Assembly: GCA_031276875.1 (NCBI GenBank)
Contig: JAISMG010000037.1
Span: 35,770 to 99,769 of the forward strand
Origin: Candidatus Peribacteria bacterium
GTDB lineage: Bacteria; Patescibacteriota; Gracilibacteria; Absconditabacterales; Absconditicoccaceae
Length of the DNA: 64,000 bases
Direction of reading: 5' to 3'
Positions 4,018 to 60,076 of this stretch are shown here, piece by piece; positions within the stretch are counted from its first letter, which is position 1; the number at the start of each line of letters is the position of its first letter. The notes under the pieces are model-generated. The model was given only the letters and a program-made list of their open reading frames with translations, was not told where the DNA came from and ran no database searches. A program made the translations under genes and the position numbers.

Positions 4018-4089
4018 TTTGTTAGAACAAGAGAATAAAAAAGCTGAATATGTTCAGAGCATACACATCAGCAAGGGAAAAACAAGGGA

Positions 4090-4572
4090 TTATCCTGTAC
4101 TTCCAATGCCTCCTTTCCCTCTTTCACTAGGAAATAAGATGTCAAACTGTTCATACATCACGCTATCCACCTGCATTTCCAGTCAAGGGACATCTCCACA
4201 TCAGTACTGATGTTCTGCTCGCAAATAGGGGAAAAATTCCAATTGTGCCAATCTGGTATACGCAGGGATTTCAACCGTTTCGGCAGTGTAATTGTACAGC
4301 TGCATTAGATATTCTCCTCTGAAATCCGCATCAAATACCGCAACACTATTTGCCAACATCAAATGTGCTTTGGTAGGCAGGGAACTTCTGGCATACATTC
4401 TGCTTCCTCGTCCTTGAGGAAGAAACGTTTTGATACCTGTTCAGACTTTAGCTATTTGTCCAGCAGGCACCGTAAATGCTTCTTTACAGACGACGTCCCG
4501 ACAAACCGAACCGGGCGTTCCTTTCGTAGGGAGCAGCTTTTCATCAAATGTACAAATCAAAATATTTTGCAT
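4090..4572 (-). CDS. dut: dUTP diphosphatase
   Basis: KV(G)TGIKTFLPQGRGSRMYARSSLPTKAHLMLANSVAVFDADFRGEYLMQLYNYTAETVEI...ERGKGGIGSTG; dUTPase motifs including the C-terminal GGxGSTG. Confidence 0.88.
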
Positions 4573-17573: not shown

Positions 17574-17758
17574 TGTAGTAAATAAATGGTAATAAATAAA
17601 AAGCAAAAATACTTTACTTCTATTATACTGGGATGTCCTTTTTTTGCAAATTTATGAAGACTTTTTCTCTCTTGTGTTGTGAAGAGAATATAAGGGAAAG
17701 AAGGAAGAAAAAGCTGAAAGAAAAGGATGAAACATCAATAAAGAAGCAGTGAATAACA

Positions 17759-24600: not shown

Positions 24601-25563
24601 ATCTACTAATTTGAGAGAAGATGGCTCTATATCTCTCGTTTGAAGAGTATAACTTTTATAATCTGTGGTAGTAGCTGTTTCAAATTCATTTTTCAAATCA
24701 TATGTTTGATCAACTTTGGCACCAGTATAATTTAGATTTCCTTTGTTAATATCCCCTAATTTAGTATTCATATCTGCCAAAAGTTCATATTCTGGTGTAA
24801 CCGCCTCTAATTCTTTCTTTACATTATAAATTCCTTTAAAACGATAAATTTCTTTCTCTTGAACTTCTTTTTTTATCTTCTGAGTTAAATCAGTAGCTTG
24901 TGCAGAATTAATCAATCCTTTTTCTGCTAAATCATAAATACGATATAAATATAATGCAATACGAATTGCTATTTCTCTCTGAGTATCAGGTTGAGTATAC
25001 AATTTACTACTTTGAATAAGAAAAGGATTATTATTTTTACGAACATTTTTTACGAAACCAGAAAGTTCAGTATCAATATTCATTGTAGTAGCATTCAACA
25101 CTTTTGAAATATCGGTAGTTCCAATATTTTTCTTCACATCTGACATATCTAAACTTTTTCCTCCAAAAAGTGTCCAAGTTTTCTTTACTACATCTAAATG
25201 CTGAAAGTCTTTTAATGTATCTAAGACAAGCGTTTGCAGAGTATCCTTTTCAGTAGTAGGCAAAGCAGGTACTACCTTTTTATAAAAAGTTGTATTCCAT
25301 AGTTCCTTTATGCCATCATTCGTTGTAAAATCTATCACCCCTTTTCCCAAATTCTTCTCAAAAAGTTGCTTTTTCTCTATAAGTTTTATTTTTAATGCTA
25401 AAAGTTTTGTTTCATCATCATTTCCCTCTGCAATTTCTGTTTTTAGTAGATTAAAAATTTCTTGCTTTTTCTCAGCAACCACATCAGCACTATTACGAAG
25501 ACCAGTTTTAGCATTAATATCTGAAATAATTCAATCTAAACTGGGATTTGGTTTGTTTAACAT
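21604..25563 (-). CDS. Very large hypothetical protein (1319 aa) with (SPSP/SLSP)n linker
   Basis: Track ORFs 24475-25482, 22837-24336, 22549-22821, 22285-22533 and 21604-22269 are in one frame; all gaps hand-checked, only TGA; ends TAG. Confidence 0.85.
24017..24304. repeat. 18-bp-period tandem repeat (ggtgagagtgatggtgat), coding for SPSLSP repeats
   Basis: Directly visible tandem array with two main variants (gagagt / gaaaat, gaaagt). Confidence 0.95.
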
Positions 25564-25689
25564 CTTATTTATATAAATCATCTAAAAATGGTGTGTGAAT
25601 TTTCCTACTTAATTATATCCTAAACTTCCAAAATAAGCAAAAATCTGATACAAAATCAGACTTTTCATACTTGACTTATTTTAAAAATA

Positions 25690-28620
25690 TTATACAGAAA
25701 ATCAAAAATTTGTTGTTAATAAAGACCTTGTTGATTCAAAAGGAGACATCCTTTTTTTGGCTGAACTAAGAAATTGTTGCGTAATCGTTTCATTCTGCAA
25801 TAACGCACGTCTTTCTCTTATATCTGTAATAATTACTCTATGAGTATCATTAATATTTGTTTCATTCATTATTACACCACCTTTCTGTTGATAAGGACCC
25901 TGTCCCCATCTAGATCTTCTTCTATTACGACCTCAAATCTTTCCTGCTTGCCTGCCTGCTAACGCAGTAGCTCCTATTGCTCCTGTTGCACTACCAACAT
26001 TTCCCCAATTCAAAGACCAAGGTAAAGCTCCTAGTGCACCACCTACTGCCGCACCTCACAAAGCAGCTGTTCCTACACTATTGGCTACTATTTTTCCTGT
26101 TCTTACACGCCTCAATTCTCTATCATAAGGTGCTCTATCGTGTGCTTCCACATAAGAGAATTCTTGAGTTGACCCATCAAAGAAATAGAGTCTTCCCGTC
26201 TGTCGGTCAGTTGCAGAAAGGAGTGAATTATCATTAGCAATTTTTCTATTTTGGGTAATTCAACTAGCTCCCGTCAACATTTGTTCATTTACTGTAGCTA
26301 GAATATCTAGACTAATGCCATCAAAAATTCTTCCCTTTCTGCGTTTTCTTTTATTGATAATACTTGGTAATGAAGAAGGACCATATGTTTTCCCTTCATA
26401 CGTTAGCGTAAATTTATTGTTTGCATATGCAATACTAGCTCATGTATTGCCTCCAGTAGCAGTAGTGACAGGTACAGGACCCCAAGCAAATTTTCTTGTA
26501 GTTCCAAGATTTGCTAAAAAGTTCATTGGGTCTTTCCAGAGATGAATATTCAAGTTTGCTTTGAATTTATCACTACTAAATCGTCTATTGGTCATCACTC
26601 TCCTATAACTCTGATACTTTTGGTTCATAGCTTGCGTAAAATGGTTCATTACATCAGTCAAATTATGTTCTAGACTATATCCATTGGTATTTCGATTGGT
26701 AGTAGGAGCAAAATGCTGATTATAATCAAAAATCGTTTCAATATGTTGCCTTCTAGCTCCCGTATGTATATCTATTTCTAATTCATTTGTAGCTAATGTA
26801 ATATTTCCATTGTCCGCTATCTGTAAAGTGTGGGTAATATCAGCATTATGATGATTCTGATAAGAAAGAGGGATATTTTTATCTTTAGCCATCTGCACTA
26901 CTGACCTAATAACATTATAAGCAATATGAAGTCTTTCTTTTCCAAAAGGGATTTGTTGATTTTGAAGGACTGCTTGTATCAATTCCATTGGACTTGCTGC
27001 AGACATTTTTAAAGGATATTGCTGTGACCCAGGGATATTAGTTCACCATACTTCTAATGTCATTTTTTTGGCTGAAACTACATTTACTTTCATATTATAG
27101 GTTATAGATTGCGGTGTTTCATTTTCTCCACGTAACGTAAGAGTTTGGTCTTGTGGGAGCGTTGTGGTATCTTTTGCAAAAAAACTTAAGTAATTATAAT
27201 CATTTGCACCAAAACGAACCCATCATCTTCCTGGACCTATTTTAAATCTCCTCTGATTTTCTTTAGCCAGTCCGCGATTGTTCATATCTTGATTGACTCT
27301 TCCATCACCAAAATCATCAACCTGACTTCTATTTATAGTATCTATAAAATTATCAAAATTTGCCATCAAAAATCTACGATTATGATAATTATTATCTGGA
27401 CGATCAATGACTTCTGAAAATCTATGACGCATTCGTTGACCAATTTCTTCTCTATGAATTGCATGAATAGCAGTAGTAAAATCAGCTACACTTCTATTAG
27501 CTCTAGGATGAGTTCTCAATATTTCATCTCTACGAGCATCTGAAGCAAACCAACATGTAAATCTATTGAAATCTACAAAATGTGCTTCACGATTAAAATT
27601 ATTCCAATGTGGTTGTCCAATATATCTCGCTCTCAAAAAATCAAAACAAGCTTGTCTTTTTTCTGGAGTATCCAATAAAGCAGCTTTCGTAGGACTAAGT
27701 CTTTGCAATGTAGCAAAAATCATCTCTTGTTCTATACTTTCGTGGTCATTAGTCCATTGATGTTGTATTTCATGATGCAACACTCCAGCTCCCATATTGT
27801 TATAATCTATGATAGCTTGTTCACGTTGATTAACATTTAATGCTCCAATTCATGGAAGATTGATGGTAATATTTTTATCTTTGTAAAGATTTAACCCGTG
27901 AATTTGTGTAGTAGCTCTTACTGCTAAATCTAATGTTGTAAAATCAGTATCTGGCGGATTGATGACAAAACCTGCAATAATTAATTGTCCTGTGTCTCTA
28001 TTAAAGGTTATTCCTGTCAACGTATGAGTTACTCCATTATGCGTATACGTATAACGACCTGTTCCATCAGGTCTCAAAACAGTAGTACCATCTCTCATCA
28101 CTAAATCATACGACCTCGTTCAAAATCCCACAACATCAAAATTTGTACTCAAATCTCTGTTAGCATTGCTGGTATCAAACGTATGCACTGCTCCTACAGG
28201 TGTAGTTTCCAAATTAGTTGCTACGGTATAAATTTGATTGTATTCACTATAACGATGTACACGATGTAAGGTATTATGTAATCTTACTCCAGGTAAAGTA
28301 CTAGCAATCTGTCCTCTTCTTAAATTAACATTAGGATTTTGAGGACCAGCTGCCAACCTAGCTTCTTCATCAGTAAGCCCCGTAATTTCTGCATCTATTA
28401 CTTGCTCTGCAATATTTCCTCCTCCTCATCATCAAGACACTAACTTATTACGAATAGTTCCTAATGCTGCCATTACTTCCGTATCTACAGGAATAATGTC
28501 ATTTACTACAGAAGCTAATTTAAGATTGGTCTCTATAATAATATTTTTTAATTGTGCAAAACTTTCCAAATTTTGAGAGATGGTATCTGCTCTACGAATA
28601 ATTTCTTCTTTAGTAGCCAT
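25690..28620 (-). CDS. Large hypothetical protein (976 aa) with an HExxH motif
   Basis: Track ORFs 28432-28758, 28120-28356, 27850-28101, 27223-27795 and 26440-27006 in one frame; gaps hand-checked, only TGA; ends TAA; contains GAGVLHHEIQHQWTNDHESIEQEM. Confidence 0.82.
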
Positions 28621-29035
28621 TTCAACAAATTTATCCAAATAAAATATTTTCCTCACTCCATTATACTCCAAACCCTCCCAAAAGTCAAAAAAAAGCAGAC
28701 TTTTTTTCTGATGAGTATCATAAACTACAATGAAGATACTTTCCATTTTCCTCTTCATCTGGATGTTCTAACCTTTTAAAAGATATTTTTTGATAGCATC
28801 TGTGTGCATATGATACTTGAGTATGGAAATGGAAGTAGACAATACAATGAAGTATGGAAAGGCTTATCAGAATACTGATGATTTCATCAATGACCTCGTA
28901 GCTGATGAAAAAATTTTCTCTAATCAATCTTCCTTTGAAAAACTTTTTCATTTCCGTATACCTACTCACGATAAACAATACAAATCTCCTGTAATCTTCT
29001 GAAATCTTTTTACCTCTCCTGAAATCATCTGTACT

Positions 29036-34082: not shown

Positions 34083-34115
34083 TGCTGATAATAGAGCTTT
34101 TTATTTCTCTTGATT

Positions 34116-35240
34116 ATGTGAATGTGGAAAAAATTACTTTGTGTAGGAATATGTATCTGTTGTGGTGGAACGGTGCGAGGAGCAGACGATATTTCTTCTC
34201 CAAAGACAAATTTGGCAACTATGTATAGCTTCCCTATCACAAGTCCTGATAAAACTACCATCATCAGGAGATATTGTTGGGGAATGCTTTCCACTACTCC
34301 TTCGGAAGGTCAACTGGTTTGGAACTTGGGAAGTAGTTCTTTTAGTTCCAGAAATGCTCTTTTTGTGCGTGCATTGTGTCACGCTTGGAACCCAGAACCT
34401 TTGACGGAAAGCTTAGTAGATAAGGTGTTTCAAAAAGATTTTGTAAAAAAACTGTCCTTACAGCAGTATCAAGATAAAGACGATGTGTGTATAGTAGGTG
34501 CAAAACAATATTTATGTGATATTTCTCGTTATAGTTTTGCTATTTTTCGTGCATTGATGAGTGATATTTTTAAAATTAAATGGGCACACGCAGTGTTTGT
34601 GGATGCTGATAGTAAGTTTCAGGAAAAAAATAAAAGGATTGCGAATATTTTTAAGACATATTTTCTTCTAAATGAGTCAGATGAGTCTGTATATCAAAAG
34701 AAATTCCCCAAAACCTCGGCAATGATTGATAATCAACAAAAACAATTTCGTAAATATCTACAGTCTTTAACGATGTTGGACAATGAAGCCTTGTTGAAAG
34801 CATCAGCCTTTTGCACTTCCGAAACTCCGATTTGAAATGGGGCTCAATGGTGTGGTTTACATATGTCGGGTGATAAAGGAATGAATGAACATTTTTTGTT
34901 TCTTTTGGCAAATGAATATCTCAATTATCGTATCTTTATTGATTATTATACTCATCAACTTAGGAAAGGGATTACCTCTTCTTATCCTGATGATGGCGAA
35001 AAACAAGCACCATATTTAAATGAACTGCAGTCGTTAGCTTTTCAGAGAGAGTTATTTGAGTCATCTCTTCAGACGGCACTCAAGGATTTTCAAGACTTTG
35101 TGACAACGTATCCCTTACATATTGGATTGGTTGTATACCAAGAAAGACTGCTACAATTTAGAGATACGATAGTGAAAGTAGTTCCTTATTTTTATAATTT
35201 ATATGAAAAACTTAGAAATGTCCAAAATGCCAAAAACTAA
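34116..35240 (+). CDS. Hypothetical secreted protein
   Basis: M(G)MWKKLLCVGICICCGGTVRGADD signal/lipoprotein-like start; two track ORFs joined through TGA. Confidence 0.68.
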
Positions 35241-37575
35241 AAAAAAGCTGATGTTCTTTGTTCTTGTAGGATTACTGATGATGGTAAGTCAGACTTTTGC
35301 TGGTTTTTTTAAAGGAGATATCAATTGGTGAGGAGCAGATGTTGATATAGGATTGTGAATTTCTAATGCATTGACCAATTATTTAGCTACCAAAGAACAA
35401 AATGCTTACCTCAAACAAGCATATAGTGCAGACTTTAGTAAAAATCCCTTTGAAACTGCGATGGAAAGTGTCTCACTCTTGAGGAATGAACCGGTAGTAG
35501 CAGGCATTCAATACATTAAAGCTCAATTACAAAAGCAAAGTTGCTCTTTATCACAGAGAAATATTGTGACTATTGTATCATATTTTCGTCCAGATTTTTC
35601 TGCTCTTTTTTCTTCACAATTGATACAAAATACCAATAAAACTCCTTCTCTGGTGATAGATAAAGCCACAGCATTTAAAGCTTGTCAGAAATTTAATGAA
35701 TGTTTCCCTCCAAATACTTATAAAGCTGATGGTGACATATGGAATATGTGTGAAAAATTTTTTACCAATTGGTACGCAGAAGGACTCAAAGAAAAAACTC
35801 GTAGTCAGGCAATTGACACGGTACAAATGGGAGAAGATAAATATTGGAATAGTTCATTGGAAGACTCTCCTTATGATGTGATGTATGATATTAGTGCCGT
35901 ATCCAAGGTCTTATTTGAAAGTGTGCAAGCACCGGTAGAGATGGCGTTTTATCATTATCCCAATTTCTCTGCTTCACAAGGAGGAAAGGGAGTTGCGGGG
36001 GGACAATGAGGCTCTTCTGCTTCTCCTTCTTCTCAAACGAAACAGACAACTACAACTAGTACTAGTACGTTATGAACAGGTATTGTGATAACGGGAGCTA
36101 TGGAGTGAGCTATTAAAGGAATGTTTGTAGGAAAACAAACAGCTTTTTCTGGCTTTTTTACTGTAGTATTGACGGGAGGAGAAGTTAGTGCTAGAACCAC
36201 CTTTCCTTTCATTACAGGATATTTAAATGGACCGTTATCAGGTATATTTACGGGAAAAATTGTAGAACATACACTTGTAATTACCGGGACATTTGTGGGA
36301 AGCTTTACAGGGTTTGGAACAGAGTTTACGGGAGATTTCTTGGGGACACTCACCGGAAATGTAAAAGCTCTTCCTTCTCGTTCTGCATTAAGTTTTACGT
36401 GGTCATTTGTTTCTTCATATTCCAAGGTAGCTGAACCTTCTACCAGTCAAGAGCCAACTCCTCCTAGAACCGTTGAACCAGGGAATGAAGGAGCATTTGA
36501 TGAAGAAATAGAAGATTTTTTGAATGGCATTTCTTATAATTCGGAAACTACGTTATTTGGAGGAAATATGTGTATAGGAACGGCAGATGAACCTTGAAAT
36601 ATAGATGATACAACGCCGCCTTCATCTGATGCTCCTACGTCTAATGAGATTACTGATGAAGAATTAGAAGCATATATAGAAGAGTTATCGGATGCAATAG
36701 ATGATTATTTAGAAGTTCCTGAAGAGATAAAAAAGCCTAATGAGCCACAAACTTCCGATGAAGCTACTTCAATATTTACTGATACAGGTGCACTTCAGCA
36801 GGCAGTAGAAAAAGTAAAAAGTTGTTTCTCTGATTGTGATGGATTGGTATTGGATAAAAGATTAGCTTGTAAAGTAATGTGTGCCTGTGGTAATCGGGAC
36901 TCTAAAGTATTTGACCCTCAGAAAACTCCAGGGTTATGACCTATTCTAAGAGTGAAATTTTGTACGGTTCCGGTGACGGCGAAAGATTTTTCGCCTAAAG
37001 GAAAAGTTGTCTATAGTATTGAGGAAAGCCTAAAAGAAATTTATGGGGTAGTAGATACCTTGGAAAAAGGAGGAGAATTGGGTACCTATGAAAAGCAGAA
37101 AGAATTTATGGATAGTTCTACCAAAGGTATGGATTTTGGTAAAATGATAGCGTTTACCTTTAGTCAGTCTACCAAGACGCATGTTTCTAAATCATCTGCA
37201 TATTTTCGTAAACAAGTAGCTGAAGAGTATAATACAAAACTCAAAGAAACATTAGGAGTTGCTGCTCCTTTAAATAATCCCGTAAGTCGTAATAGGTACA
37301 CGGTAGCTGTTGACCGTCAAGCAGAGGCATTAAAAAGAAATGTTGCAGCTCAAGGAGCGTGATATGATAAGGAAAAACAAAAGCAGGATGCATTGGATAT
37401 AACACCTATTCTTTTAGGTGCTTTGGAAAAGGTATTGAAAAATGATAAGTATATCAATTTATGATATGAAGTTGAAACGTTTTTGTCTCAACAATTGACC
37501 TTCTGGTTAGATGTTATTAGTGAGATGCAGCAAATAACGAACAGTCTTGAAAATTTATCGAGGAAAAAATCCTAA
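35227..37575 (+). CDS. Hypothetical secreted protein (782 aa) with Gly/Phe-rich beta-like repeats
   Basis: MPKTKKKLMFFVLVGLLMMVSQTFAGFF signal-like; frame-consistent ORFs 35371-36009, 36121-36597, 36952-37362 linked by TGA; ends TAA. Confidence 0.7.
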
Positions 37576-39270: not shown

Positions 39271-40149
39271 TTATTCATTCAGCTTTTTTTCTGCTTCTTG
39301 GAATAATTGGTATCGATAATTGGTAAAGAACGCTTCAAAAATTCCATTCAAGTAAGAAATCACTAGGAGCATTGCAACAGCTGAAATTCGGATAATTCCT
39401 TCTACCAATGCATTATTGATAATATTAAAAAAGATGGCAATATAAATCAGTCCGAGTGGGAGGGCAATCGCAATAAATGCGTTGAGAAAAAACCTTCCCA
39501 TCAGCATTATCTCAAAGAGAAATCCTTTGACAGTGAGACTAAAATTAGTCATCGTTAAATAGATACTTTTTTTGATGGCGTCAAATACTCCGAGGTCTTG
39601 GCTGATGATATAGTATTTCGTATAAGGTCGAAAAATATTGGCGAGAATGACGATAATCCCCCGAATAAGAAGAATAATTTGCAACATAATATTGTCCAAA
39701 ATTCCCATCATTCGTATTCTGATAATAATGGTAATCACGGTATAAAACCCAAAAGCAAATCCCAATCCGTTAAATTCCAACATTACAAAGAATTTTTTTA
39801 TTCCTTTGGTAATAGCTCCGGCAAGTTTATTTCCTTTGTCTTGGACAGCGTAAGTAATGGCAGCTTCTCCTATGGGATAGATAAGAAAATTTCCTATAAT
39901 AACGATAATGAGCAGAGAAATGATAAATCCTCGCATATTGAGCTCTTGCACTTTGGTAATCAGGTAGACAAAAGCATTAGAAAGCTGAATACCAGCCTCA
40001 TATCTCTGATTGAGAATATAATTAAAAAAATAGGCAACAAGATAACTGCGATAAATCGTATGTCCAAAGGTCGTAAAAAAGGAAATCCTAATGAGTTTAG
40101 GTTTGGAGAGGAGCAGAAGAATGCTGTCTTTGACAATGGATTTTATCAT
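39271..40149 (-). CDS. Multi-pass membrane protein, hypothetical
   Basis: Continuous ORF with several hydrophobic segments (FIISLLIIVIIGNFLIYPIG, IILLIRGIIVILANIF, IAIALPLGLIYIAIFF, AVAMLLVISYLNGIFEAFF). Confidence 0.75.
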   Translation of the reverse strand: MIKSIVKDSILLLLSKPKLIRISFFTTFGHTIYRSYLVAYFFNYILNQRYEAGIQLSNAFVYLITKVQELNMRGFIISLLIIVIIGNFLIYPIGEAAITYAVQDKGNKLAGAITKGIKKFFVMLEFNGLGFAFGFYTVITIIIRIRMMGILDNIMLQIILLIRGIIVILANIFRPYTKYYIISQDLGVFDAIKKSIYLTMTNFSLTVKGFLFEIMLMGRFFLNAFIAIALPLGLIYIAIFFNIINNALVEGIIRISAVAMLLVISYLNGIFEAFFTNYRYQLFQEAEKKLNE

Positions 40150-40162
40150 CTGGTAAGTAGAA

Positions 40163-40669
40163 TTAGGAGCCTAAAAATACAGCAGTAAAGAATTTCATAA
40201 TAGCATATGAGAAGCTGATGACCAGCACTCCAATAATAGCATTTTTAATGGCACTATTTCCGGTATTTGTTTTCCCTCCAAAAACACTACTCGCGTAGAG
40301 ATACCCTGCATAGATAATCATCAATGCTCCTATCAGCAATCCAATCTGAGAAAGAAATTTGACTACATAGACGAGATAATTGAGGATGGTATCCCAATTC
40401 ATAATTCCAGTCGCCATTTGTTCTTTGAGAGAAAGTTTTTCTGCTTCTTTTCTATAGGTATCCATTACTTCGCCTCCTACAGCTCAGATTTTTTGTATGG
40501 ATGTTTGACCTGTTGCCATTTCATCTGATTTGAGTTCAGGAATAATTTCAAATCCCATATCATCTTGGGCAGTCAAAAATCCTCCAAACGTACAACAGCA
40601 GAAGATGCATACTGTTATTACGTGGTAAAGAAAGGTGGTTTTTTGTGTAGTGTGAAGTGAAGTGTTCAT
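40163..40669 (-). CDS. TrbC/VirB2-like pilin family protein (168 aa)
   Basis: Signal-like N-terminus, then NYLVYVVKFLSQIGLLIGALMIIYAGYLYASSVFGGKTNTGNSAIKNAIIGVLVISFSYAIMKFFTAVFLGS: two TM helices with a polar turn as in VirB2/TrbC; two ORFs joined through TGA. Confidence 0.6.
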
Positions 40670-41894: not shown

Positions 41895-44800
41895 TTATTT
41901 TTTAAAAGGTGCTATTTTTATGGTAATCGTTATAGTGTCGCTCTCTGGAGAAAGTGCACTTTCTTTGAAAAGATAGGAAATAGTCTGTTGGTCAGGATGA
42001 TATGCATAGGTTCCATACAGATTTTTATCACTATAGATTTGTCCAGTAGGAGCAACAAAGAGCATATTTTCACCGTTTCTGTGAATAGCTTTTCCTCCTT
42101 GGAAAATTCCAAAAGAGCTATCGTCAATCGTGGTACTGGTATATGCTGGAGCCTCTACAGCTACAAGTTGTTGGGTAGGAAGCGTAATAGTAAACATCAA
42201 CGTACCTTCTAAATTGTAGACTTGAATAATGGGAATATGAGCAGAAAGGCTGACTCTGAGGGACATTTTATCTTTCCGTTTATCTTTGAAAGTGATTGCT
42301 CCAGTGTTGGGGTCGATTTCTGCGATGAGTTCGTGAGAGGAAGAATAGAGTCAGATTTTGTCATTGAGACTATAGTATTGCCCTGTAATGGTAGTAATAC
42401 GCGATGAAAGAGGATAATCTTCAATCGTTAGAGCTGGCTGTTCACTGCTTCCCCACTCCGAAAGTAAGGAAGGATTTGCAGCGAGTCCTACCCAATATCC
42501 GTTTCTGTTTTTCTGGAAACTGACGGTTCCGGTGTCTACATCTTGAGAAAGTTCTGCGGTGATAGTGGCAGCTTTTTCACTATTTTTTTCAATATTGGTA
42601 ATAGTAATGTCGGGTATCGTTATCGCAAGGACAATGTCTTTGGTGGTGGTATTCCCTTCGTGGTCGGTAGCGTGGAAGCGGTAATTGAGACTGTCTGCTC
42701 CCGTGAAGAAGAGATTTTCGATGATAATATCTCCACTAGCGTTGGTCGTATGGAGCGTTTGTACCATCGTGCCGTTAACTTCCTGTTGCATTGTAGCCAG
42801 TGCGACATTGTCTGTTCGGTGCATTATCAGATTGTAATACGTTCCTACTACGCCTTCCAAAGCGTCTCCTTCACTAACAACTTCTTGAGTAGCAATTCTG
42901 TATAATTGAGCTTCTCCTTGTGGTCATTCATCGTCTCCCAAAATTTGTTTTCCAGCAACGACTTGATTTGACCGAGGAGCACTGATTTGTAGGGTATTGT
43001 TCTCGTTTCTCAGGGTAGTAATTCTGGCATATTGTCGTTTTCTTTCGATATTTTCCAAGATGACGCTGATAGCAGATTGGTTGGGGTCATAGTATCTGAT
43101 TTCTGCAATGAGTTTATTTTTGGTGGCTTCTTTGAGTGCTGGAGTGGCTCGATTTTGGACTTCATCATTGATGAGAAGTTCATTGGTGACGAGGCGTTTC
43201 TGTGTAGGGAAGGTGGTAAGTTTCATTCCTGTAGTATCGGTTCCTTTGGGAAGGACGAGGATGTAAGTTTCAATCAGCTTTTTATTTGTGTCTTCTTTTT
43301 CTGGAGAGTAATCAATTCTATCGGTAAGTTTGATAAGGTAGCCTGCTACGCTTGCTTCTCGGTTGGGTCTTCGTCCCAGAGAAATAGCGTCAAAACTCTG
43401 ACCTCTCACCGCAAAATTTCTGACTTCTTCGTGATAATCAGAAACTTTGAGTTTCGTATTGTCATCAAAGTTAATAATTCTTTTTTCTGAAGGAAGTGTA
43501 GAGATAGCTTTCATAAAATACGTTTTGGTAGTATTGTGAGGTCCATTGAAGTTGTCGTTTTGGTTTCCGTATTTGATATAGACGTTGTGGTCATCCCAAA
43601 GGATGATGTCGTCTGCATTATCAGTATTGAGTGGGGTGGTGTAATAGTTTGTACCGATACTCTCTGCATTACGTTCAGAATAAACGACTTTCGTCAAGGA
43701 AGATTTGGTGGCGGTAGAAGAGTTTGTCTTCACGAAAATCCCGTTCACATAGGCAGCAGGGTCGATACTCATACTTTGGCTAGATGAAGCTGCCGTCGTT
43801 CCTTTACTTTGAGCAGTAAGGGTTTTGGTGGTGGAGCTACCTTGTTTGGTTTGCAAGGACGTTTGATAGGTAGGTTGGAGTCTCTGATAAAATCCCGCAA
43901 GTTGGTTTTTGAGCGTGGAAAGGGTTTGTTTATTTCTTTGGTACTCTGGAAGTGTCATATTGAGGAGTTCTGGAGATGTCGTATTGATTTCATTCAAAAA
44001 GTTATCAATAATAGGAGCTTTATTGTCCAATAAGATTTTATAAGGATTTTCCATGGTAGTGAGGAGTTTTTCTGTTCCTTGGTCTACATTGAAAAAGTTG
44101 AGGTTAAACGCCAGATTTTTTTCCTCTTTGGCTTGCGTGAGTGAAGTTTCCTTTTCCAAAGCTCTAATAAGCTGGTCATAATCGGACGAAAGGGTTGCTT
44201 GCGTGAGCTGAATTTTGCTTTGTTCGTCAGTAATGAGTTTGCTGATTTGCTGTTGCATTTCTTCTACTCCTTGTTGGTTGGCTTCAATGGTTCTTGGCGT
44301 GGTGAGAGTAGATTGAATGGCTTTGAGTTCGCGAAGGGTAGTTTCATCTTGGCTGGCTTGTGTATTGAAGTAGGCAAGTACGTTTTCTAGTCTGCTTTTT
44401 GCTTGTGGATAGTCAACGTAATTGATTTCATCAGTTGTTAATCCATTAAACATACTTACTTCAGTTTTACATTGTTCAGGGTTATTGATACAATTTTCTA
44501 CAATATCTGCACCATCTTGTGCAACTTTAGAAATGCTATTCATTCCATCACTTATGTTATAACTTACAGCAGTTGAAAGATTATTGATAGCCGTTGTTAG
44601 ATTATCCAAGAAACCGTAAATAGTTCCAAAATTGAACTGGAGATTGGCTTGAGCGTCAATTTCATAATCAAATCCATTGAGTTCAGGTTTTGGAAATTTT
44701 AACTTATTTGTCAAATCTACAATGGTATCAAATCGAGGAACTTCATAGGTTCTTTGGGTTAATTGTTCGATTTTTGCTTTGACTTCACCTTCTCCTACCA

Positions 44801-47800
44801 ATCCAATACCCTGTTTTACGATACAGTAAATACGTCAGATTTTTTCTGCTAGTTTTAAGGTAGCTTCAAATTCGTGAGGGATTTGTGGTAATTGAGGAGC
44901 AGGGGGAAGGACAGGAAGTTCTAGTTTGATATTGGGAATAAATGATGGTAATTCTGGTAAATGGGGAGGTGCTGGAAGTTCAGGAATTTCTGGAGCAGAA
45001 GGAAGGCTAATATTTGGTAAGGTGAAATTAATATCTATTATAGGAGGAGTAGGGAGATTGGGGATAGTTGGTAAATCAACTTTGATAGGCTGAAAATTAA
45101 ACGTAGGTAAAAGGATATTCATATTGAGATTAAGCTCTGAAAAATCTATGATAATATCAGGAATTTTGATATTAGGAATTTGAATAATCGGAAGTTTTAT
45201 GCCTTGACAGAGGAGAGAAAGGGTACAAGAATGCTGATCATAAGTATCATTAGTACAAGTAGCACATTTATTTCCCCAATTCACCGAAAAATCTATGAGG
45301 ACTTGGTAGGTTTTAATAACATCCATAATGAGAATAATCGCATCTACATAGGATGAAAATCTATTGGCATTAGTCGTCATCCAATAAGAAATATATCCAA
45401 AGAAGTTTCTCATAATCGCTGAGATTTCTGCTACGTATCTATCAATGGCATGTACTCGTTCATAGAGTTCAAAAGGAAGATTTCTATATTCTTGGAGTAT
45501 GAGAATATTTTCATTAATTCTATCCAAAATATTTTCATAATCATTACTTAAATCTACCATTTCTTTCACTTTTTGTTCCACGGTTTCTTCACAGGTAATC
45601 ATATCACAGTAGTGTTGTTTACAAGCTTCTTTATCTTTATTTTCACCATCGCACTGATTATTATTACATCGTGTTTTATATTCATTTCTTTTCTCGCTTT
45701 TTGCTTTTTGTCCTTCTTCCTCTCTTCGAGGAGGATTTTTTTCTCCTTTTCCGATAGCATTAAAACATATTCCTATCAAACTTTCTGTTCGTTCTGTTCG
45801 TTCTTTTATGATTTCTCCGTTAGTGTCAGCTCGTTGCCTAAGATAGATTTCATAAGAATTGATATCTTCTCGGTAAATCATCGGAATTTTTACGGTCATA
45901 TTTTTGGTTTGGATATTGATGAGTTTATTTTGATTAAAAAGTTTCGTTAGCTTTTCAAAAGGATTTGCGAGGTTATCGTTCACTTTTTCTACTTGGGCAG
46001 AAAGATTACGATAAGAAGTATCTGCTAAAATTTCTTTCATACTAGGTTTATCATCAGCAACAGCATTCTTGATTTTACCAACAATCTCTCCTATTTTTTT
46101 TATTTCAGCTCAAAAATCTTTGAGGTCAGGTCGTTTGAGAGAGATGTGCATTTTGGTAAGATTATTTGCAAGATATCTAATTTGAGGGTCAAGTCGGTTA
46201 TCAATCAGAATTTTTCTTAGTCCTTGTTGCAGTCAGGATTTTATTCTATTTTTGGCGGCAGTTCCTCATTGTATTTTTACACCATTGATGGTGATAGTGT
46301 TTTCGATAGAGTTAATACTAGGTTCTCTGTTCAAGTTGATAATTCCTCCGAGACTACTAGGAATATAAGCACCGTAAGCGTCGTTTTGATTTGCGGTGAG
46401 ACAGTTTAGGCCTTGACAGTTATTTAGATTTATGGTGCTATTTACAGCTTGAAAAGCAGACCTGCTATATCATTGTTGACTACTTGCTGCTCCTTGTGCA
46501 GTGGTATTACAAGCATTTGCATTGCTCAGATTATTGATGAGTGTTGGGTCATAGGTTTCTGCTGGATTATCGCTATTACCTTTATTTCCACAAGGGAGTT
46601 TGATGGCTGTGACGATACAGTTTCCTCAGAGTTCTCTAAAAGGACTAGGGAGAGCTTTCCCTATACTATAGGGTCAGAAGCACATTGCAATTCCGAGCTG
46701 AAGAGTGAGAGTAGGTGCTACATAAATTCTAAATTGAGAAGAGCTTCCTCCAAAAATTCCTCCTGCTCCTTGAAAGTTAATTGGTCGAAAAGGAGGGATA
46801 GGAACTCCCATAACGTTTAAAGGACCTAGTGTTGGGAAGGAAAAAACAGGCAGTCCTTTATCCAACGGAGTGAGAGGAAGTTTAATACATCACAAAATAT
46901 GATACGCTCCGGGAGCGAGGAAGGCTTGATTGAAAGGGACGGGTAATCCTTTACACGTATTGCTTCCCCCAAAGGTAAAGCCATTACAAAGTCCTGCGGC
47001 AACTTTTTCTAATTCTTGTTGTACTTTTCCAAGTTCTTCATCGAAAATATTTATGTCCAAATTAATTCCCCCTTGAAATCCTTCAGAAATGAGGTCTTTG
47101 AGATTGATAGTGTCAGAAAGTCAAGGGACATTAGGTATCATACTTCCGGAAATAGTGGTCAATGCTTGTTTCTGTTGCTCAGCATTTTCATTTGATGTTG
47201 CATCTGTGGCATTTGTGTGTTCATCAATAATTTCTTGAAAATTTATTCCTTTGATTGTATAGGTTCTCTTTTTACTGGTTCCTTCGTTGATAAAGGTTTG
47301 CAAATATCTCACACATCCATCTATCGGTTGTGATTTAATGTCCAAAAGCCCATCTGCACGAATACTTTGGTATCCTGTTCCATATGCACTACCGTTAATG
47401 TCTTCTAAACTAATCGTTTGACTAGGAATATCATCTTGATAGATGAGTTGATAAGTATAGGTAAAAGGTCTTCCATTAACTGAGAGATTGATATTTTCAA
47501 TAAGATACGAGAAATTACTGTCTTGAGGGTGAATAAGGTAAGTAGGATTATGTTTGATACTCAAGGAGTCGATAATATTATTTTCATCTACTTTAATTTC
47601 TCGAGGTCATTGAATGATGTCTCCAAATGCTCCTTGTTGAAGGGGTTGGTTAGCGGTAATATAGACAGTCACTTTTACAATATCACCTTTTTCCAAAATG
47701 CCACCGTTGAGGTCTTCATAAATTTTATGTACTTTTACTTTATCAGTTCCTGTAAGGTAGCTTATAGGAATAAAAATTCCCGTGGTTGTTTTGGTGGTAT

Positions 47801-50800
47801 GTAAGGGATACGGAGTGGTAATTTCTTGGTATTTCATTGCATATTCTAGTCCTGCATTAGCCATTGCATCAGTATCAAAATTTTTAGCTCAAAGCATTTC
47901 AGAAAGCTGATTAATATCAGTATCTTCAGGGTTATTATTGAGGTCTTCTATCATTTGATTGATAGCATCTTCAGAAAGATTAGACATATCAACTCCTACA
48001 TTCTCAGGGTCATCAATGTTCATATCTTCCATATTTGGCATCTCAGCTTCAATGTTTTTCCAATGCACCATACTATTGTCGATGATTTTTGAACTTTCAT
48101 CGATTTTTATTCCAAATCTCGTGATAATAGTAGTATCAGCTTTTTGTCTCTCATATCGTTGTGGGTCACATTGCACGTTATTTGTGCTGAGATAGGTAGG
48201 TCGTGCATTACGTTCTCCTCCATAAAAGATTTTTACAAACCCTTTATGGTCATTGGTGAGAATGTCTATAGCTCCGTCTTTATCCATATCTTCCAAAAAA
48301 GTCTGATGTACCGATGAAAGCAGATGAGGCGTGGTGCTGATTTCTCCGGGATTGACATTCGTATTGAGACAGACGGGATAGCCATCTACATCAAATTTAC
48401 CATCCTTGTTTAGATAAACTCTGAGTTGGTTAGTTGTCGTACGAATGATAATATCTTCATAGTGATTATTATCAATATCTCCCACAAACACTTCATCAAT
48501 TCCCACCGCAATCAAGAGCAAATTTTCCAAAGATTGAAAATTCTGTCCAACTCCGTGTCCATAATTTTTGGCAAGTTTCACCGTTCCATCAGTGTACACG
48601 ATGAGTAAATCTTTCAGTTTGTCATTATTAAAGTCGATAGGTTTGACGGTGAAAATGGTTTTGGTGGGGTCATTGAAACTTTCTACTCCTAGTCCGCCAT
48701 CATAATTGGTGTCATAGACATTAGGATTAGTATCGTAATTTCTCAAGAGCGGGTCTCCGAGATTTATCAAGAGTTCAGAACCGTATTTTCTAGTAGCATC
48801 TCCTACATTTTCTCCCTGTGCAAAGAGCGTCATATTTTTGAAATCCCCTCTAAATCCAATAGCGTTATCAGTCACATAACTATCTTGAATAGACAAATAT
48901 CCCCCTTCCAACGCAAAGCTTGTCGTAGTATCAAAAATTCCTATGGTACCTGTATTATTGGAAGAACCATTAGAAAACGTAGGCTGAACGAGATATTTTG
49001 TGTTGGTTGTGGTGAAATTATTTGCTGATATTTGATAGTTGGGGAGGTGAAGAAATAAGGTTCCGGAGATGGTGTTTCCATTTCTTACTTCCCGAGCTTG
49101 ATATCCTTCTATAACATAGTCGGTAAGATAAGCAGTGATGTTCGTACTTCCATTTCGTTGGAAGTCAGCTTCTTCTGTCTCTTCTGATGAGAGAAAAAAT
49201 GCTGTATTTTTAGTGAGCTGTTTCGCTCCGCTTAATGTGGTTTCGAGCGTGTCAAGGTCAAGTAGTGTTCGTTCCAAACTATTAAGTCTTCCTTGTGCAG
49301 TAGCAATGTTTTCAATCTGGAGCTGGAAACCTGTCGTTCATAGCGTAAGCTGAGTAGTGCCTCCTCCATACGTCTTAATCACAAAATTGGGAGCAATTCC
49401 CCGTAGCATTGCGTTGATTTTGGAAGGTTGGACCAGTTGTGTAGTGGTAGTGATGAGTTTATTTGACTGTTTCATCAGATGTTCAATGTATTTATTATGT
49501 TGTGAGAAGTATCATCGTTGATTTCCTCGGTCACTTCCAAAGTAATTGAGGTACATAATATTTAGTCCGCTGGTACTCGGAAAGAGCGGTTCTTGAAAGG
49601 TTATTTCTGCAATGCCCGGAACGACATTCGTGTTATTTTTTGCATTGGCAATGAGATAGCCCATTCCTCCTACTTTTCCAGAGAGCGTAAATGCACGTTG
49701 CCCTTGTCCGGCAGGTACCGTAAGCGTATTATTCAGCGGAAAGCTGGTAGCGAGTCCAGAATTGTAAGTGAAGATAATATCTGTCTCATTCAAGATACGA
49801 TTGCCTCGAATGTCCGTGAGAAAAATAGTTCCCTTTACGGTTTCACCAATTTTTGCTTGCGTGGCAGAAAGTTCTATGTCAATATTGTGAAGCGGAGCAG
49901 GCTTGATAGTGATGGGAATTAGAAGCGGTTCCAATCACGGAATTTCTACTTTAAGCGTGTCGTTACCAGCTTTTTTATTGGAATAAAAATAGAAAGAAAG
50001 CTGACCGGTGGTGAGTGTAAATAGTCCTTGTTGTTTGAAAATAAGTTGATTGCTTTTGGGAGTAGTAGCAGTAATGACTTTGGTTCCTGTGGTTCCTATG
50101 GTGATAAGCTTGTTGGCAGAACTTACGCGAATGTCACTATCAACTGCTACGGGTTGATTGGTAGCACTGTTTAGTATTTTCAAATTGACAGTTTGTAATT
50201 GAGAACTTCTGAGATTAAACTGTTTGAGATTATTAGTTCCTGTAGTATACAAGTCGTCTTTTTCTGGTAAGGTAAATGTGAGACCACTAGAGGATACAGC
50301 TTTTGCATTGATGGTGAGATGAGGTTTTGCGTTGATGATAGGTTGAATAAGTTGACCAGTTGCACTTGTCGTATCATTAGTATCAGCAGGAGTGATGATA
50401 ATAGTAGCGTTTCCATTTTGAGCATTTCCTTCTAACGGAGCTGCTTGATAGTAGAAGTTCAGATTTTTGAAACTATTGGTAGTAAACGAGGTTTTGTAGC
50501 CTCCTTCGTGGAGAAATTTCCCTGAAGAAACACTCACGAGGTAGGATACAGGCGTTCGAGTCACAGGATTTTGATAAGCGTCTTGGGCAGTAATACGAAT
50601 AGGGGTCAACATTCCTACAATGCTTGTCTTGGGAGCTTGTATGTTGAATTGAGCGAGTGCTCCCTCTTGAACGGTAATTCTTTGAGTTTTGCTTACGCAA
50701 TTTGCACTATTGGGAATACACATTTTGATAATGAGTAAACTGATTCCTGCTTTGTGATTGCTAGGAGTGAGTGTGAGAGTTTGAGGGGTGGTATTGGGAT

Positions 50801-53800
50801 TGAAAGATTTTGTTCGTTCTCATTTGCAGAGGTCAGTATTATCAATTTTAAGGCAACTTTGACTTCCTGTTAAGATGATGTTGATGTCTACGAGTCCTAC
50901 ATTTTCTATGGAAGAAATGCTGAGTTGGGCAGTTGGATTTTTCTCATTGATGGTAGTGGTATTGAGGTAAGTTTTTATTTTACTATAAAAAGTAGAGAGA
51001 CGTTTGCTCGCGTCTGCTTGTATGGCGGTAGTGTTGGTACTTTCTATGCTGTTTTCTTTATTATAAAGAAGCGTTTCAGGAGTATCATCGGTAGAAATGA
51101 GGTCTTTTCGCTCTTGTCCAAAGTCTTCCATTGATTCTGCTCGTGGTTCTAGGGTATTTTCTTTTTCTTTGGTGAAATATTCACCAAAGCTTCCGTCTGC
51201 TAAGCTAGGTCAGAGACTTGCACTAAAATCAAGCGTAAGTTTTCCAGGAGTCGCGAGGGTTTGTTTTAGTCGACATCCAAATGCTGTAAATCGTGGTCGA
51301 CGATCTGGTCATTCAAAGTCAAAAAGTAACACACTTCCATCAGTAGGAATTCAGCATTCATCTGCTAATTCTTGAACACTAGAAAGCAGACTATCATCGG
51401 AAGAAGTAGTGGAAGGTTTAGTGGCAACTGCTGTAGCTTTCTTTGCTTTTGCCTCTGCAAGCTCTGTAGGGAAAATAGGAGCAGCAATGATACGGTCTTT
51501 TTCATCAGAATTGATGTAGGCCACTTCGTATCCTTTGGGTTTGTAAGTAGGGAGTACGAGGGGGCTTTTGTTGTTTCCTTCTGTAAGGTATTCTTTGAGG
51601 GTGTATTGTACTTTATTACTAATGTCAAAGGAGCTTCTCGTATTGATAATATCTTTTTCAATGAGGTTATCGCTTTGTTTTTCGGTATTGGTGAGATTTT
51701 GGTAGTAAAGCATTTCTGTGATGGTGTCGAGTTGTCCAGTTCCTCCTAATGCAGTGAGAAGGTCATCGTAGGTGAAGAGATTGTAAGGACGAACACTAGT
51801 ATCTATATCAGGAGTAGCTCATTTGAAGTTAAGACTTTTTAATTTGTTGTAGGCTGCATTCATTGATTGTTTAGCGTTTTGTGCCCCAGTGAGGAATATG
51901 TTATATTCGTTGACTTTATTTTTGAGATAACTTTCTAAAGCTGATTTGATTTCAGGGATAGTTTTTAGGATTTGGTGTCCATTGGAGTCAGCTTTGTAGA
52001 TTTCTACTTTGTAAAGGTTAGGGTAGATAAATTTGACTTCTTGAGCGTTAATTCCTTGAAAAGTGACGTATCTTGGGGAGTCGATAGGACGGTCAGGAGT
52101 AAGCATATTGAGTCAAGGGATATCTAATTGTTCATCTATATTTTTTCCAGTAAAAAGTTCTTGAATTTTTGAACTAATATCTTGAGTTAAGCTTGTATTA
52201 GTAAAATCATTTGCTGTGAGTTTTCCAAATTTTATATTTGTATCACTACAGGTATTTTCATCACTGCAGTTTATATCTATATCTTTAATATGAAAGAAAC
52301 TACGCATATCATTAGGTATTTTGTTTTTTATAGCTGTACTTATTTGATCATCATCTCAATTAAAATCAATACCATCTGTATTAATAATGATATTATTATT
52401 GTTGGATGTTCCTATGAGTGATAAAATTTCACTAAGGTCATCACTACATTTATTTTGACACATTGTGATTATGCGTGTTTGGAAATTTGTAAGAAGAGTA
52501 TTGATATTTTGATATTGGGTTTTATAAGTTTGAATAAGATTGTTAGTATACATATTTTGGAGATTTTTTAGTTCTGTATTGATGGTAGATATTCGTCCAC
52601 TAGCGAATTCAATTTGCTGCTTTTTTATATACAAAGTTTCGTACTCTACATCTTCAATATTTTTTAAGGTATTTAATAACGAATTCACTTGTACTGTTTG
52701 TAGAAGATTGTATAAGTCTTCTAGAGATTGGGAAGTATTTCAATTTGAAAATTTGTTATCTCTTAAAATCTTTTTAATATTATCAATATAGGTACTGATA
52801 TTTCATTGGTGAGTAGTGATAGTAGTTAAGTTTCTCTCTTCCTCTTCTTTTGCTAATTCTGTAGCAATAATGAATAAAGAAGTCTCAATATTAGAAAGTT
52901 CTGTGTTGATAGTTGAAAGATTTGTGACAATTGTTGTTCCTATATTTTTGATTTCATCTAAAGTTCCGCCAGTATTAAATCGAGTTCATAATAAAGAGTT
53001 TATGTCATTGATAATTCTTTGATAATAATTAGTCAGATAAGAACCCGTTCAAAATTTTGTGGTTTTAATTCCATTGAGTTGATTAGACAGGGTACTAATA
53101 TTTTTAACGATAGAAGAAATAACTTTAAAAGTATGGCTTTCTTTTCGTTTTCCCATTCTATTAGTTTCTCGATACAAATCGAAGGTAGGAGAATTTGGCT
53201 TTATTTTCCACGTATCATGATAATCATTATTATCCTTTCCATTATTATAAATAGTGAAAAAGTCTAATTCGTTAAACGTAAGATGTTCATCAGGTAGTCT
53301 TTTATTGATAGTTGTAAACTTTCCTGCAAGGTCTCCATCAGTAGTATCAGTAGGGTTGATTGCTTTTCTAGCAATTTGTAAAGCAGTAGGAGATGCATAT
53401 TCTGAAGCTGCTACATAGCTATTTGCTTTAAACTGTGGAGTAGTAAGAGCTTTACTTCCTCCAATATCAAAAATATCATTAAGAGCATTTTTTCCATTGA
53501 AGTTTTCGAGGATATATATTCATTCATTTATTTTTTCAAAATCTAAATTAATAGGAGAGCCACCTCATCGTCGTCTTTGAGTAAATTCTGGTATTGTTTC
53601 ACAGTCTCCATCATTAGTTGTATTAGTATCTTCTGGATGACACGATCAGATAGGTTCGCTAATAACTTTGGTACATACCATTTTCCACCAACTAAATGGT
53701 CGTCGAGAGGCACACTTTAGTGTTCGTCAAGCATACGTTTTATTTTTTTCGTAGTGATTGTATTCATCTTGAGTATTCAAAATATTATATCCTCTGTTTG

Positions 53801-55334
53801 CTTCTACTTGGGTTGAAAAAATATCATAAGATGCTCCTAGAGATTTTAATGAAAGGTTTGTTTTATCTTGTGGTGTGATTGCAGGGTTAATGCTTGCTTG
53901 TATTGTATTGGAATTGATACCATCTAGTCAAGTAAGATTTCTATAACTTCCTCTATATATGCTTAATTCTTGTGCATTAGAAATGAGATTAGCACTTTTC
54001 CCAAAATAAAATACTTCATACTTGCTTTCTAAATATTTGTTGGTTTTATTTTTACATATTTTAATTCACAAGACTCTTTTACATCATCCTACTTTTTCTG
54101 CTTGTATAGTTGTATATGATACTGGCAATACAATATCCATATCATACTTTTCACTTTCAATCTTCTCATCTACCGCTCTTTCCAATGCATTATTGAAACT
54201 AATCAATGCCCCCTGCACACTCGTATTCCCCCCATTCACCACATCTTTCAGATTTATTTTATCTGTTGAACTGTCAGCTCTGGTGATCAGTTGGGCTCCA
54301 TCATCATCTGTATATCCCGTCAACCATCTTCCTCCAGCCATCACATTATCCCTCAAGATAACTGCATTCTGCGTCGAATAGACTTTAGGATAATCCAATA
54401 AAAAGCTTTCTTTTATCGTTTTTTCTACTACTTTGGTGGAAAGTCCTTTATCAGTGCTACTTCCTGCATTACTCACCATTGCTGCAATATCAATAGCATT
54501 TCCGTTTTCGTCTGTCAGACTACCACCCAATTCTTTCATCGTGGCGGCAAGGTCGGTAGCAATTTCTTCAGCTCCTTCATTTTGTTTTCCTTGAAACATT
54601 TTCAGCATTAAGGGAGTGAACCTTTGATACCCAATATCCTCACTAAAGAGGATTTTATTTTGGTAAAACTGGAGATTGTCTTCCAAAAATCCGTTTCTAT
54701 TGGCAATAAAATCCTCATACCAAATGTCTTTCCCGATAAAGCTTTGAGGATTATTTCTGTAGGTTTTGATTTTGTTGAAAAACTTTTTGTAGTCGGCAAT
54801 CTCTCCGTCATAATCAATCAATCCGTGTCGAATTTCAGCTTGACCTTTACTATTTCCATTAGGGACAAAATACTGGTCATCAGGATTTCGTACGTATTTC
54901 TGTTCTAGAAAGTCTACATACGGATAAATGCTTGGGAACAGGTAGCCTGCTTGATTGATGACCGGAAGCGGGATATTCCCTATCAAAATCACTCCCAATA
55001 GCGTAGAATTGACTCCTGATAACCCATCAAAATACATATTTTCCAGCATATGAGAAATCTGGGGAGCATCAATAGTTTGAAGATTGAGTGGCATTACCAA
55101 GGCTTTACTTTCGGGGATTTCTTGTTGGATGTATTGCGTGGCGTATCGTTGAATATCTTCTGCAAGTGGCGTATAAATGCTATCATCTACAAAAACTGCT
55201 ACCATATTGACGTGAGGGATATTGGTGTTTTGTGCTCGCACTTCAAACAGCTCAGAAAGCTGTTGAATACAGAGTGAAGCAATATAAATCGCGAGGGTAG
55301 TAAAGACAAACGTTTTTTTCCCTTGATTTCGCAT
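41895..55334 (-). CDS. Giant multidomain secreted/surface protein, 4479 aa in code 25
   Basis: All large minus-strand track ORFs from 54084-55334 down to 41895-42266 are in one frame; every gap was read for TTA/CTA on the plus strand and none was found, only TCA (UGA); true TAA at 41895-41897; N-terminal TM/signal MRNQGKKTFVFTTLAIYIASLCI. Confidence 0.9.
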
Positions 55335-57889: not shown

Positions 57890-60076
57890 TTACATTTTCG
57901 TATGAAAGGTTCTTTCAATCACTTCCAGTTGATGAGCTTTGGATAAGCGGACAAAGTTTACTGCATATCCTGATACTCTAATCGTCAATTGAGGATAGTT
58001 TTCTGGGTGCTCGTAAGCGTCCATTAGTACTTCTCTATTGAGGACATTAACGTTGAGATGGAAAGCGTTCTTTTTGAAGTAGCCATCCATCATTCCGGTC
58101 AGATTTTCTACCTGTTCTGCTTTCGTAGCACCTAGCGACATTGGAACGATAGAAAAGGTATTGGAAACTCCATCCTGTGCAAAACGGTAATCAAGTTTCG
58201 CTACAGAATTGAGGGAGGCAATCGCTCCACTGCTATCTCTTCCGTGCATAGGATTGGCTCCCGGTGCAAATGGTTCTCCGGCTTTTCTTCCATCAGGAGT
58301 AGCTCCGGTATTTTTTCCATACATTACATTGGAAGTAATCGTCAATACAGATAACGTTGGATTAGCATTTTTGTAGGTTTTGTGCTTTTTGAGCTCAGTG
58401 AAGAAGTATTCCAAGATTTCCTGTGCAATACTATCTACTCTATCGTCATCATTTCCATACTTTGGAAAGTCTCCCTCAATTTGAAAGTCTTTCGCAATGC
58501 CATTTTCATCTCTTACTGCAGTTACTTTAGCATATTTAATAGCTGAAAGGCTGTCTGCAATGATGGAAATTCCTACCATTCCATAGGCGATATCTATTCC
58601 ATAGTTGGTATCAACAAATGCCATTTGAGCTTTTTCATAATAATATTTATCGTGCATATAGTGGATGAGATACATTGCTTTGGCGTATACTCTCGCAGTT
58701 TCTGCCATTGCGAGTTTAAAATTTGCCAACACTTCCTCATATTGCAAAGGTCCCTCAGACAATTTCGCAATGCCAGACATTACTTGCACGCCTTCATCTT
58801 CTTCTTTTCCTTCATTTACTGCCAAGAGAAGCGTCTTTGGCAAATTGGCTCTCGCTCCAAAATGCTGAATTCTTTTCCCGATTTCCTGATACGAAACACA
58901 ACACGCAATTCCATAATCATCTCCTCCACGTACCGTTTGCATTAGGGTATCATTTTCATATTGGATAGAGGAAGTATCAATCGAAACCTGTGCACAAAAC
59001 GCTTTAAATCCTTCAGGCAATTCAGGCGACCAAAGCACCGTCAAATTTGGTTCTGGAGAAGCTCCAAGATTGTATAAGGTTTGGAGAAATCTGAATGAAG
59101 TTTTGGTCACTTTGCTTTTCCCGTCTTGAAAATGTCCTCCAATACTTTCGGTGACTCGTGTTGGGTCTCCTCCAAAGATTTCATCATAAGAAGCGGGTCT
59201 CAAATGACGCACCAAACGTAATTTCATCACGAAATGGTCAATCATTTCTTGAGCTTCTACTTCTGTAAGCGTTCCTGCTTGCAATTCTTTTTCCAGATAC
59301 ACATCTAAAAAAGAAGAAACATTTCCAAGTGACATTGCGGCTCCATCTTGTTCTTTCACTCCTGCGAGATAAGCAAAGTACACAAATTGGATGGCTTCTT
59401 TTGCGGTTTGAGCAGGTTTAGATACATCATATCCATATTTTTGTGCCATCGTTTTGATGTCATTCAATGCGGAGATTTGGAGGAAAACTTCTTCTCTCAG
59501 ACGAACTTTATCGTCGTTCATCTCTCCAGCAATGGCTTCAAAATCAGCCTTTTTTTCTGCTATCAATTGGTCTGCTCCATAAAGTGCTAGCCTTCTGTAA
59601 TCTCCGATAATTCTTCCTCTAGCGTAATTGTCAGGGAGTCCCGTTACAATATGTTTGGATCTGTACAGTCTACATTCTTTGTCATAGACAGAAAAGACTG
59701 CATCATTGTGGTTTTTTGCATAGGTGAAAATGTCTTTTACTCTGGGAGACAAATCAAGTTCTCTTTCATTGAGAGCACTTTCTACGACTCTGACTCCTCA
59801 GAAGGGTTTAATCCCTCTTTTGAGAGGAGCGTCGGTTTGGAGTCCTACAATGACTTCCAGATTTTTATCAATGTATCCTGCGTCGTGAGCCGTGATACTA
59901 GAAATAGTATCAGTATCTGCATCCAAAAGCCCATTATGAGCTCTTTCTTGTTGGAGCAAATCGCGAACTTTATTTCGCAAAGTAGTTGTCCTCTCTGTTG
60001 GTCATTGGAGAAAAGAGGCATCTCCATCGTATGGCGTAATATTGTCATACACAAATGTTCTTACATCAATCGTCAT
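57890..60076 (-). CDS. pflB: Formate C-acetyltransferase (pyruvate formate-lyase)
   Basis: YDGDASFLQ(G)[17 protein letters not shown](G)[81 protein letters not shown]-terminal [29 protein letters not shown]. Confidence 0.96.

Follow-up and report, generated by a model that had tools for sequence, protein, structure and literature searches.

What does a bacterial genome encode in an interval that standard gene callers break into many short frames? The question is raised by the reverse strand of the window, the whole 64,000-nucleotide stretch of DNA analysed here (Table 1). Translation of the interval with table 11 yields many short ORFs. Under table 25, the same interval is a single ORF with an ATG start and a single terminal TAA, containing 34 in-frame TGA codons and no internal TAA or TAG; at the base composition of the window, the chance of 4479 codons free of TAA and TAG is ~2e-98. 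An earlier sequence-only reading had proposed a single giant gene hidden by standard-code calling, with more than 25 UGA codons and no other stop codon in the frame, and this is borne out.

Relatives give the same picture. All 40 relatives fetched around the gene have one continuous giant frame each, 3615–5082 aa long where complete; four of the frames are truncated by the fetched stretch or the contig, including that of L068 (genome G050), which is reported as an open frame of 7874 aa, nearly double the usual length. In 16 loci (L052–L067) of genomes using TGA as a stop codon, the gene is one frame of 3754–5082 aa, or an open stretch of a longer frame, and holds no TGA at all; recoding is therefore unnecessary to read them. 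Furthermore, closed or single-contig genomes also harbor the gene, including a complete chromosome (CP006913.1, L091), so that it is no assembly artefact. Consistently split homologues, which by the sequence-only reading would have refuted a single gene, were looked for and did not turn up: broken giant frames, consisting of overlapping frames, are found only in G429 (L131) and G078 (L133), and look like frameshifts, for which sequencing error, programmed frameshifting or decay may account. Short frames in G418, G415, G145, G117, G146 and G439 turned out to be ends of stretches or contigs and no true breaks, and in several f1 relatives the N-terminal ~550 aa only seemed to be split off, an effect of local frame reporting; the fetched stretches there hold one frame. 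The two broken relatives and the fragmentation under the standard code might suggest read-through of neighbouring genes, an assembly artefact or a pseudogene. Among same-family relatives, an identity of ~30–45% extends through long parts of a single frame, which argues against this, and the explanation is refuted because standard-code relatives have single frames with zero TGA; its probability is practically negligible. The giant frame is a true single gene, masked from standard gene callers by UGA read as glycine.

The genetic code has a further peculiarity. Summed over the recoded relatives, 462 of 515 TGA codons on conserved columns (~90%) correspond to glycine in standard-code relatives, and TGA = Gly in the earlier table-25 translation is right; what it overlooked is the reading of CGA and, probably, CGG as Trp. 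In the giant gene, CGA is found at seven conserved Trp columns (TGG at two) and at only one conserved Arg column; examples at Trp positions are residues 169, 1348 and 3047. In 16 of the 21 columns that are most often Trp in the family, the giant protein has Arg when translated with table 25. Similarly, both CGA codons of the pyruvate formate-lyase gene (57890–60076), codons 34 and 307, correspond to Trp residues in the solved structure of the enzyme. The window contains a single tRNA, tRNA-Arg(GCG). A code with CGA and CGG as Trp has been published for Absconditabacteria (PMC8629427). The earlier assignment of the DNA to an Absconditabacteria-type genome is supported. By these alignments, CGA is read as Trp, a second recoding on top of TGA = Gly. 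The evidence concerns CGA, CGG being rare in the giant gene (four codons), and CGG is probably also Trp here; about 49 Arg residues in the table-25 translation of the giant protein are then probably Trp.

The gene is a feature of one class of Patescibacteria, tiny bacteria that live as parasites or predators. A profile of the N-terminal part (residues 38–420) matches 146 of 192 class genomes, about three quarters, with approximately one copy in each (121 of 161 among good-quality genomes). It finds no match in two families of the class, f5 and f8, nor in ~260 genomes of the phylum outside the class, and when 286 genomes were sampled across the phylum, all 13 matches fell within the class. A pattern search through 84,980 species yielded 37 confirmed loci, every one of them in a record called Absconditabacteria, SR1, Gracilibacteria, Patescibacteria or plain “bacterium.” No match was found in viral contigs or plasmids, and a phage or plasmid origin was discarded. 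In the protein tree, f1, f7, f14, f16 and f18 are each monophyletic with support 1.0 while f2 and f15 are mixed, a topology broadly consistent with vertical inheritance. In one locus (L108, isolate WB-IL-23), the N-terminus of the gene lies at a contig end; a VCBS-repeat protein is reported from the proteome of “WB Gracilibacteria” (PMC11452946).

Table 1. Features of the giant gene and its neighbourhood (positions in the window; residues of the giant protein).
Feature	Residues	Position	Strand	Basis or remark
Giant gene		41895..55334	(-)	4479 aa, 34 TGA (Gly), stop TAA
Signal peptide	1-35	55230..55334	(-)	Sequence inspection
Gingipain/caspase-like alpha/beta domain (pseudo-C25 subdomain A)	42-203	54726..55211	(-)	AlphaFold, RgpB match
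Remaining conserved N-terminal module	204-665	53340..54725	(-)	Conservation
Variable helix-prone segment	666-1050	52185..53339	(-)	Ile/Leu/Asn/Thr-rich, Gly/Pro-poor
Region earlier called Ig-like	1550-1900	49635..50687	(-)	No family match
G-x-x-x-G-(n)-GDP motif	2170-2196	48747..48827	(-)	Family alignment; invariant class-wide
FG-GAP/VCBS region	2207-2714	47193..48716	(-)	Pfam FG-GAP_3; modelled as beta-propeller
Conserved Cys module	2780-2920	46575..46997	(-)	Invariant Cys 2885, 2906; near-invariant 2794, 2915
Conserved helical segment	3250-3600	44535..45587	(-)	CxxC (3357/3360), Pro-rich ~3377-3490, Cys 3504
P0002, secreted Cys-containing protein, 342 aa		40741..41769	(-)	Directly downstream in 14 loci including window
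P0003, signal peptide and two TM helices, T4SS_pilin-like		40163..40669	(-)	PF18895 below cut-off
P0004, polytopic membrane protein, next gene		39271..40149	(-)	Counterpart only in close relative L032
P0006, secreted protein		35203..37575	(+)	Family downstream of giant in standard-code relatives
Possible D2 homologue		34110..35240	(+)	Weak C-terminal profile match and gene order

What kind of protein is encoded? Like giant surface proteins of the CPR, it is very long, begins with a signal segment and belongs to Absconditabacteria/Gracilibacteria records. The signal segment, anticipated in the sequence-only reading, is present in the protein of the window and in relatives: it has a basic start and a hydrophobic core, and an A-x-A-like cleavage region is seen in relatives. 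Structures were modelled for the protein outside residues 666–1884 and 2951–4479. The domain following the signal peptide was predicted by AlphaFold with pLDDT of ~90 over most of its length, and the predicted model has the gingipain-like fold that characterizes the first half of the C25 catalytic domain. In VIA-align, its best match is RgpB (4ief_D; Z 10.6, rmsd 2.6, 129 aa aligned, 18% identity), followed by Kgp (Z 7.8), PorU (Z 7.0) and then caspases. Foldseek alone gave no significant match, so the likeness to gingipains is that seen by VIA-align and by weak Pfam matches: PF01364 has no match in the protein of the window and matches two of 35 family members (best 6.6e-4); the relative G018 scores 23.5 bits, over the cut-off of 23, and G010 scores 17.1.

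Gingipains and PorU being the best structural matches, the giant could be an active surface protease or a PorU-like sortase, with a catalytic gingipain-like domain acting on surface or host proteins. But the catalytic half lies beyond the end of the match, and the family alignment contains no conserved His-Cys pair within the N-terminal 1300 residues, where H170 is the only conserved His; the first family-wide Cys is at 1327. For these two reasons the giant protein is not classed as a peptidase. In favour of a protease, the invariant GDP at 2193–2195 may mark the distal part of a C25 domain that a very long insert has interrupted. Such a split, with residues 42–203 and the GDP near 2193 on either side of a 1700-aa insert, is suggestive and was rejected: the A2 region has no C25 match in Pfam or PDB. 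An active protease or sortase is thus very improbable.

The second recognizable fold lies in the middle of the protein. Pfam FG-GAP_3 matches there with an E-value of 1.5e-5 and 26.0 bits, just below the curated cut-off of 26.9, and invariant D-x-N/D-x-D-x-x-x-D loops are found at 2234–2242 and 2349–2357, in agreement with the FG-GAP/VCBS-like repeats recognized earlier. The model (pLDDT ~90 over residues 2224–2429) matches fungal PVL-type GlcNAc lectins with Z of 12.4–14.2, PVL itself being best (14.2), and integrin heads with Z of ~9.3–9.8; in the PVL alignment ~214 of 399 lectin residues are aligned, indicating a partial propeller in the predicted model. The predicted fold of the region is a beta-propeller with calcium loops that most resembles the fungal GlcNAc lectins and integrins. 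Conservation is strongest in the N-terminus, the propeller and the Pro-rich part, whose earlier description is confirmed; the Cys module and the helical/CxxC/Pro-rich module also rank among the best-conserved parts, and residues 1051–1400 form a further conserved stretch. The Ig-like regions noted earlier found no confirmation: no Ig family of Pfam matches the giant protein. Neither tandem repeats in the gene nor, as a recognized wall anchor, a C-terminal TM segment or sorting motif was seen.

The giant gene heads a run of genes for secreted proteins. Three or four such genes come after it in standard-code relatives, one of them homologous to P0006 of the window; D2 is the short secreted gene preceding the P0006 family there, and D1, the first downstream gene, shows a weak profile match to P0002, with which it may be homologous. 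A P0003-type gene is the third gene in eight loci including the window. The small genome to which P0003 belongs has 15 PF18895 matches, P0003 included (contigs C5, C7, C8, C13, C26 and C21), and the name “T4SS pilin” is therefore not to be over-read; a Pfam scan of 20 neighbouring proteins found no other T4SS family, and a T4SS reading of P0003 as the main explanation was dropped. Elsewhere on the reverse strand of the window, a 1325-aa protein (21604–25581) has a Ser-Pro-rich stretch arising from 15.5 copies of an 18-nt repeat at 24026–24304, reminiscent of a gracilibacterial surface protein with hypervariable PTD repeats (PMC6851277). A 675-aa protein (15579–17606) with leucine-rich repeats, Ser/Thr/Pro-rich linkers and a signal-like start is likely another surface protein, and a 1022-aa protein (25690–28758) has no Pfam family.

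With moderate confidence, we propose that the product is an exported, envelope-associated giant in which a lectin-like propeller is combined with a pseudo-peptidase base, and that it probably mediates cell contact. The protein, single-copy, vertically inherited and ancestral to most of the class, would be exported through its cleavable signal peptide and retained on the cell envelope. Its N-terminal module would be related to the gingipain/C25 caspase-like fold but catalytically silent, serving as a structural or binding domain, and the Ca2+-binding FG-GAP propeller would be held out from the surface, where, like GlcNAc lectins or integrin heads, it may bind a ligand, either on other cells or within the envelope. 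Rigidity stabilised by disulfides may come from the Cys-rich and Pro-rich modules, and the small secreted Cys proteins of the adjacent genes may form or anchor a complex. The analysis establishes the gene, its conservation, its linkage to the secreted genes and, as predicted models, the N-terminal and propeller-type folds; surface retention, ligand binding and cell contact are what we infer from these features. Considering the lifestyle of cultured relatives (PMC8080830), cell contact would be the most economical function. That no recognized wall anchor was seen, and that the propeller model is partial, count against this reading.

A structural role in the envelope would explain the strong conservation in single copy nearly as well. 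The giant may be a scaffold, i.e., a backbone linked to the cell wall or S-layer and needed by all of these cells, whose propeller binds glycans of its own envelope, with host contact not involved. Consistent with this are the single-copy, class-wide, vertical occurrence and the presence of the N-terminus and the Cys and Pro modules among the most conserved parts; moreover, many variable adhesins typically have tandem repeats, which the giant lacks. On the other side, the propeller is of the lectin/integrin type, two families of the class live without the giant, and in a predatory relative, the cultured Vampirococcus lugosii, giant surface proteins are held responsible for the fibrous surface and host fixation (PMC8080830). 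The scaffold is thus quite possible, without being the reading that we prefer. Under the preferred one, cell contact, a bolder version can be put forward, which we regard as possible but less likely than not: a giant pseudo-peptidase/lectin-propeller protein and its small secreted partners could be an undescribed hallmark of the class, an ancestral host-contact structure that predates UGA recoding.

Attachment of ultrasmall Patescibacteria to other cells is poorly understood, and the giant gene is a concrete candidate for it. In recoded lineages such a gene can be missed, while the intact standard-code orthologues offer cleaner sequences for structure work. No earlier description of the family, its architecture, its class-wide distribution or the linked secreted genes was found in a literature that excluded most subscription journals; the gingipain-like N-terminal fold, the distribution, the linked genes and CGA/CGG as Trp were likewise no part of the sequence-only reading.

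Several known systems resemble parts of the giant. SiiE-type giant repeat adhesins (PMC5466336) are similar in size and presumed extracellular extension, whereas the giant of the window has neither tandem repeats nor an Ig family match. Gingipains and PorU (C25) share the N-terminal alpha/beta fold (Z 7–10.6) and the weak PF01364 matches; in contrast to them, the present family is without a conserved catalytic dyad, and the domain resides in a protein of 4–5 kilo-residues. PVL-type lectins and integrin alpha heads have the Ca-loop motif and propeller blades in common with it, although its propeller, a partial predicted model, is embedded in a giant protein. Comparable too are the giant membrane/surface proteins of V. 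lugosii: they come from the same larger group, measure 1392–4163 aa, are exported and have domains of cell-contact type, but by the description of the paper these are WD40, TRP, PKD, saposin, DUF11, integrin and fibronectin, with no gingipain-like N-terminus (PMC8080830). Giant surface proteins of the group are thus known in general, and what appears new here is the family, its architecture, its distribution and the secreted genes linked to it.
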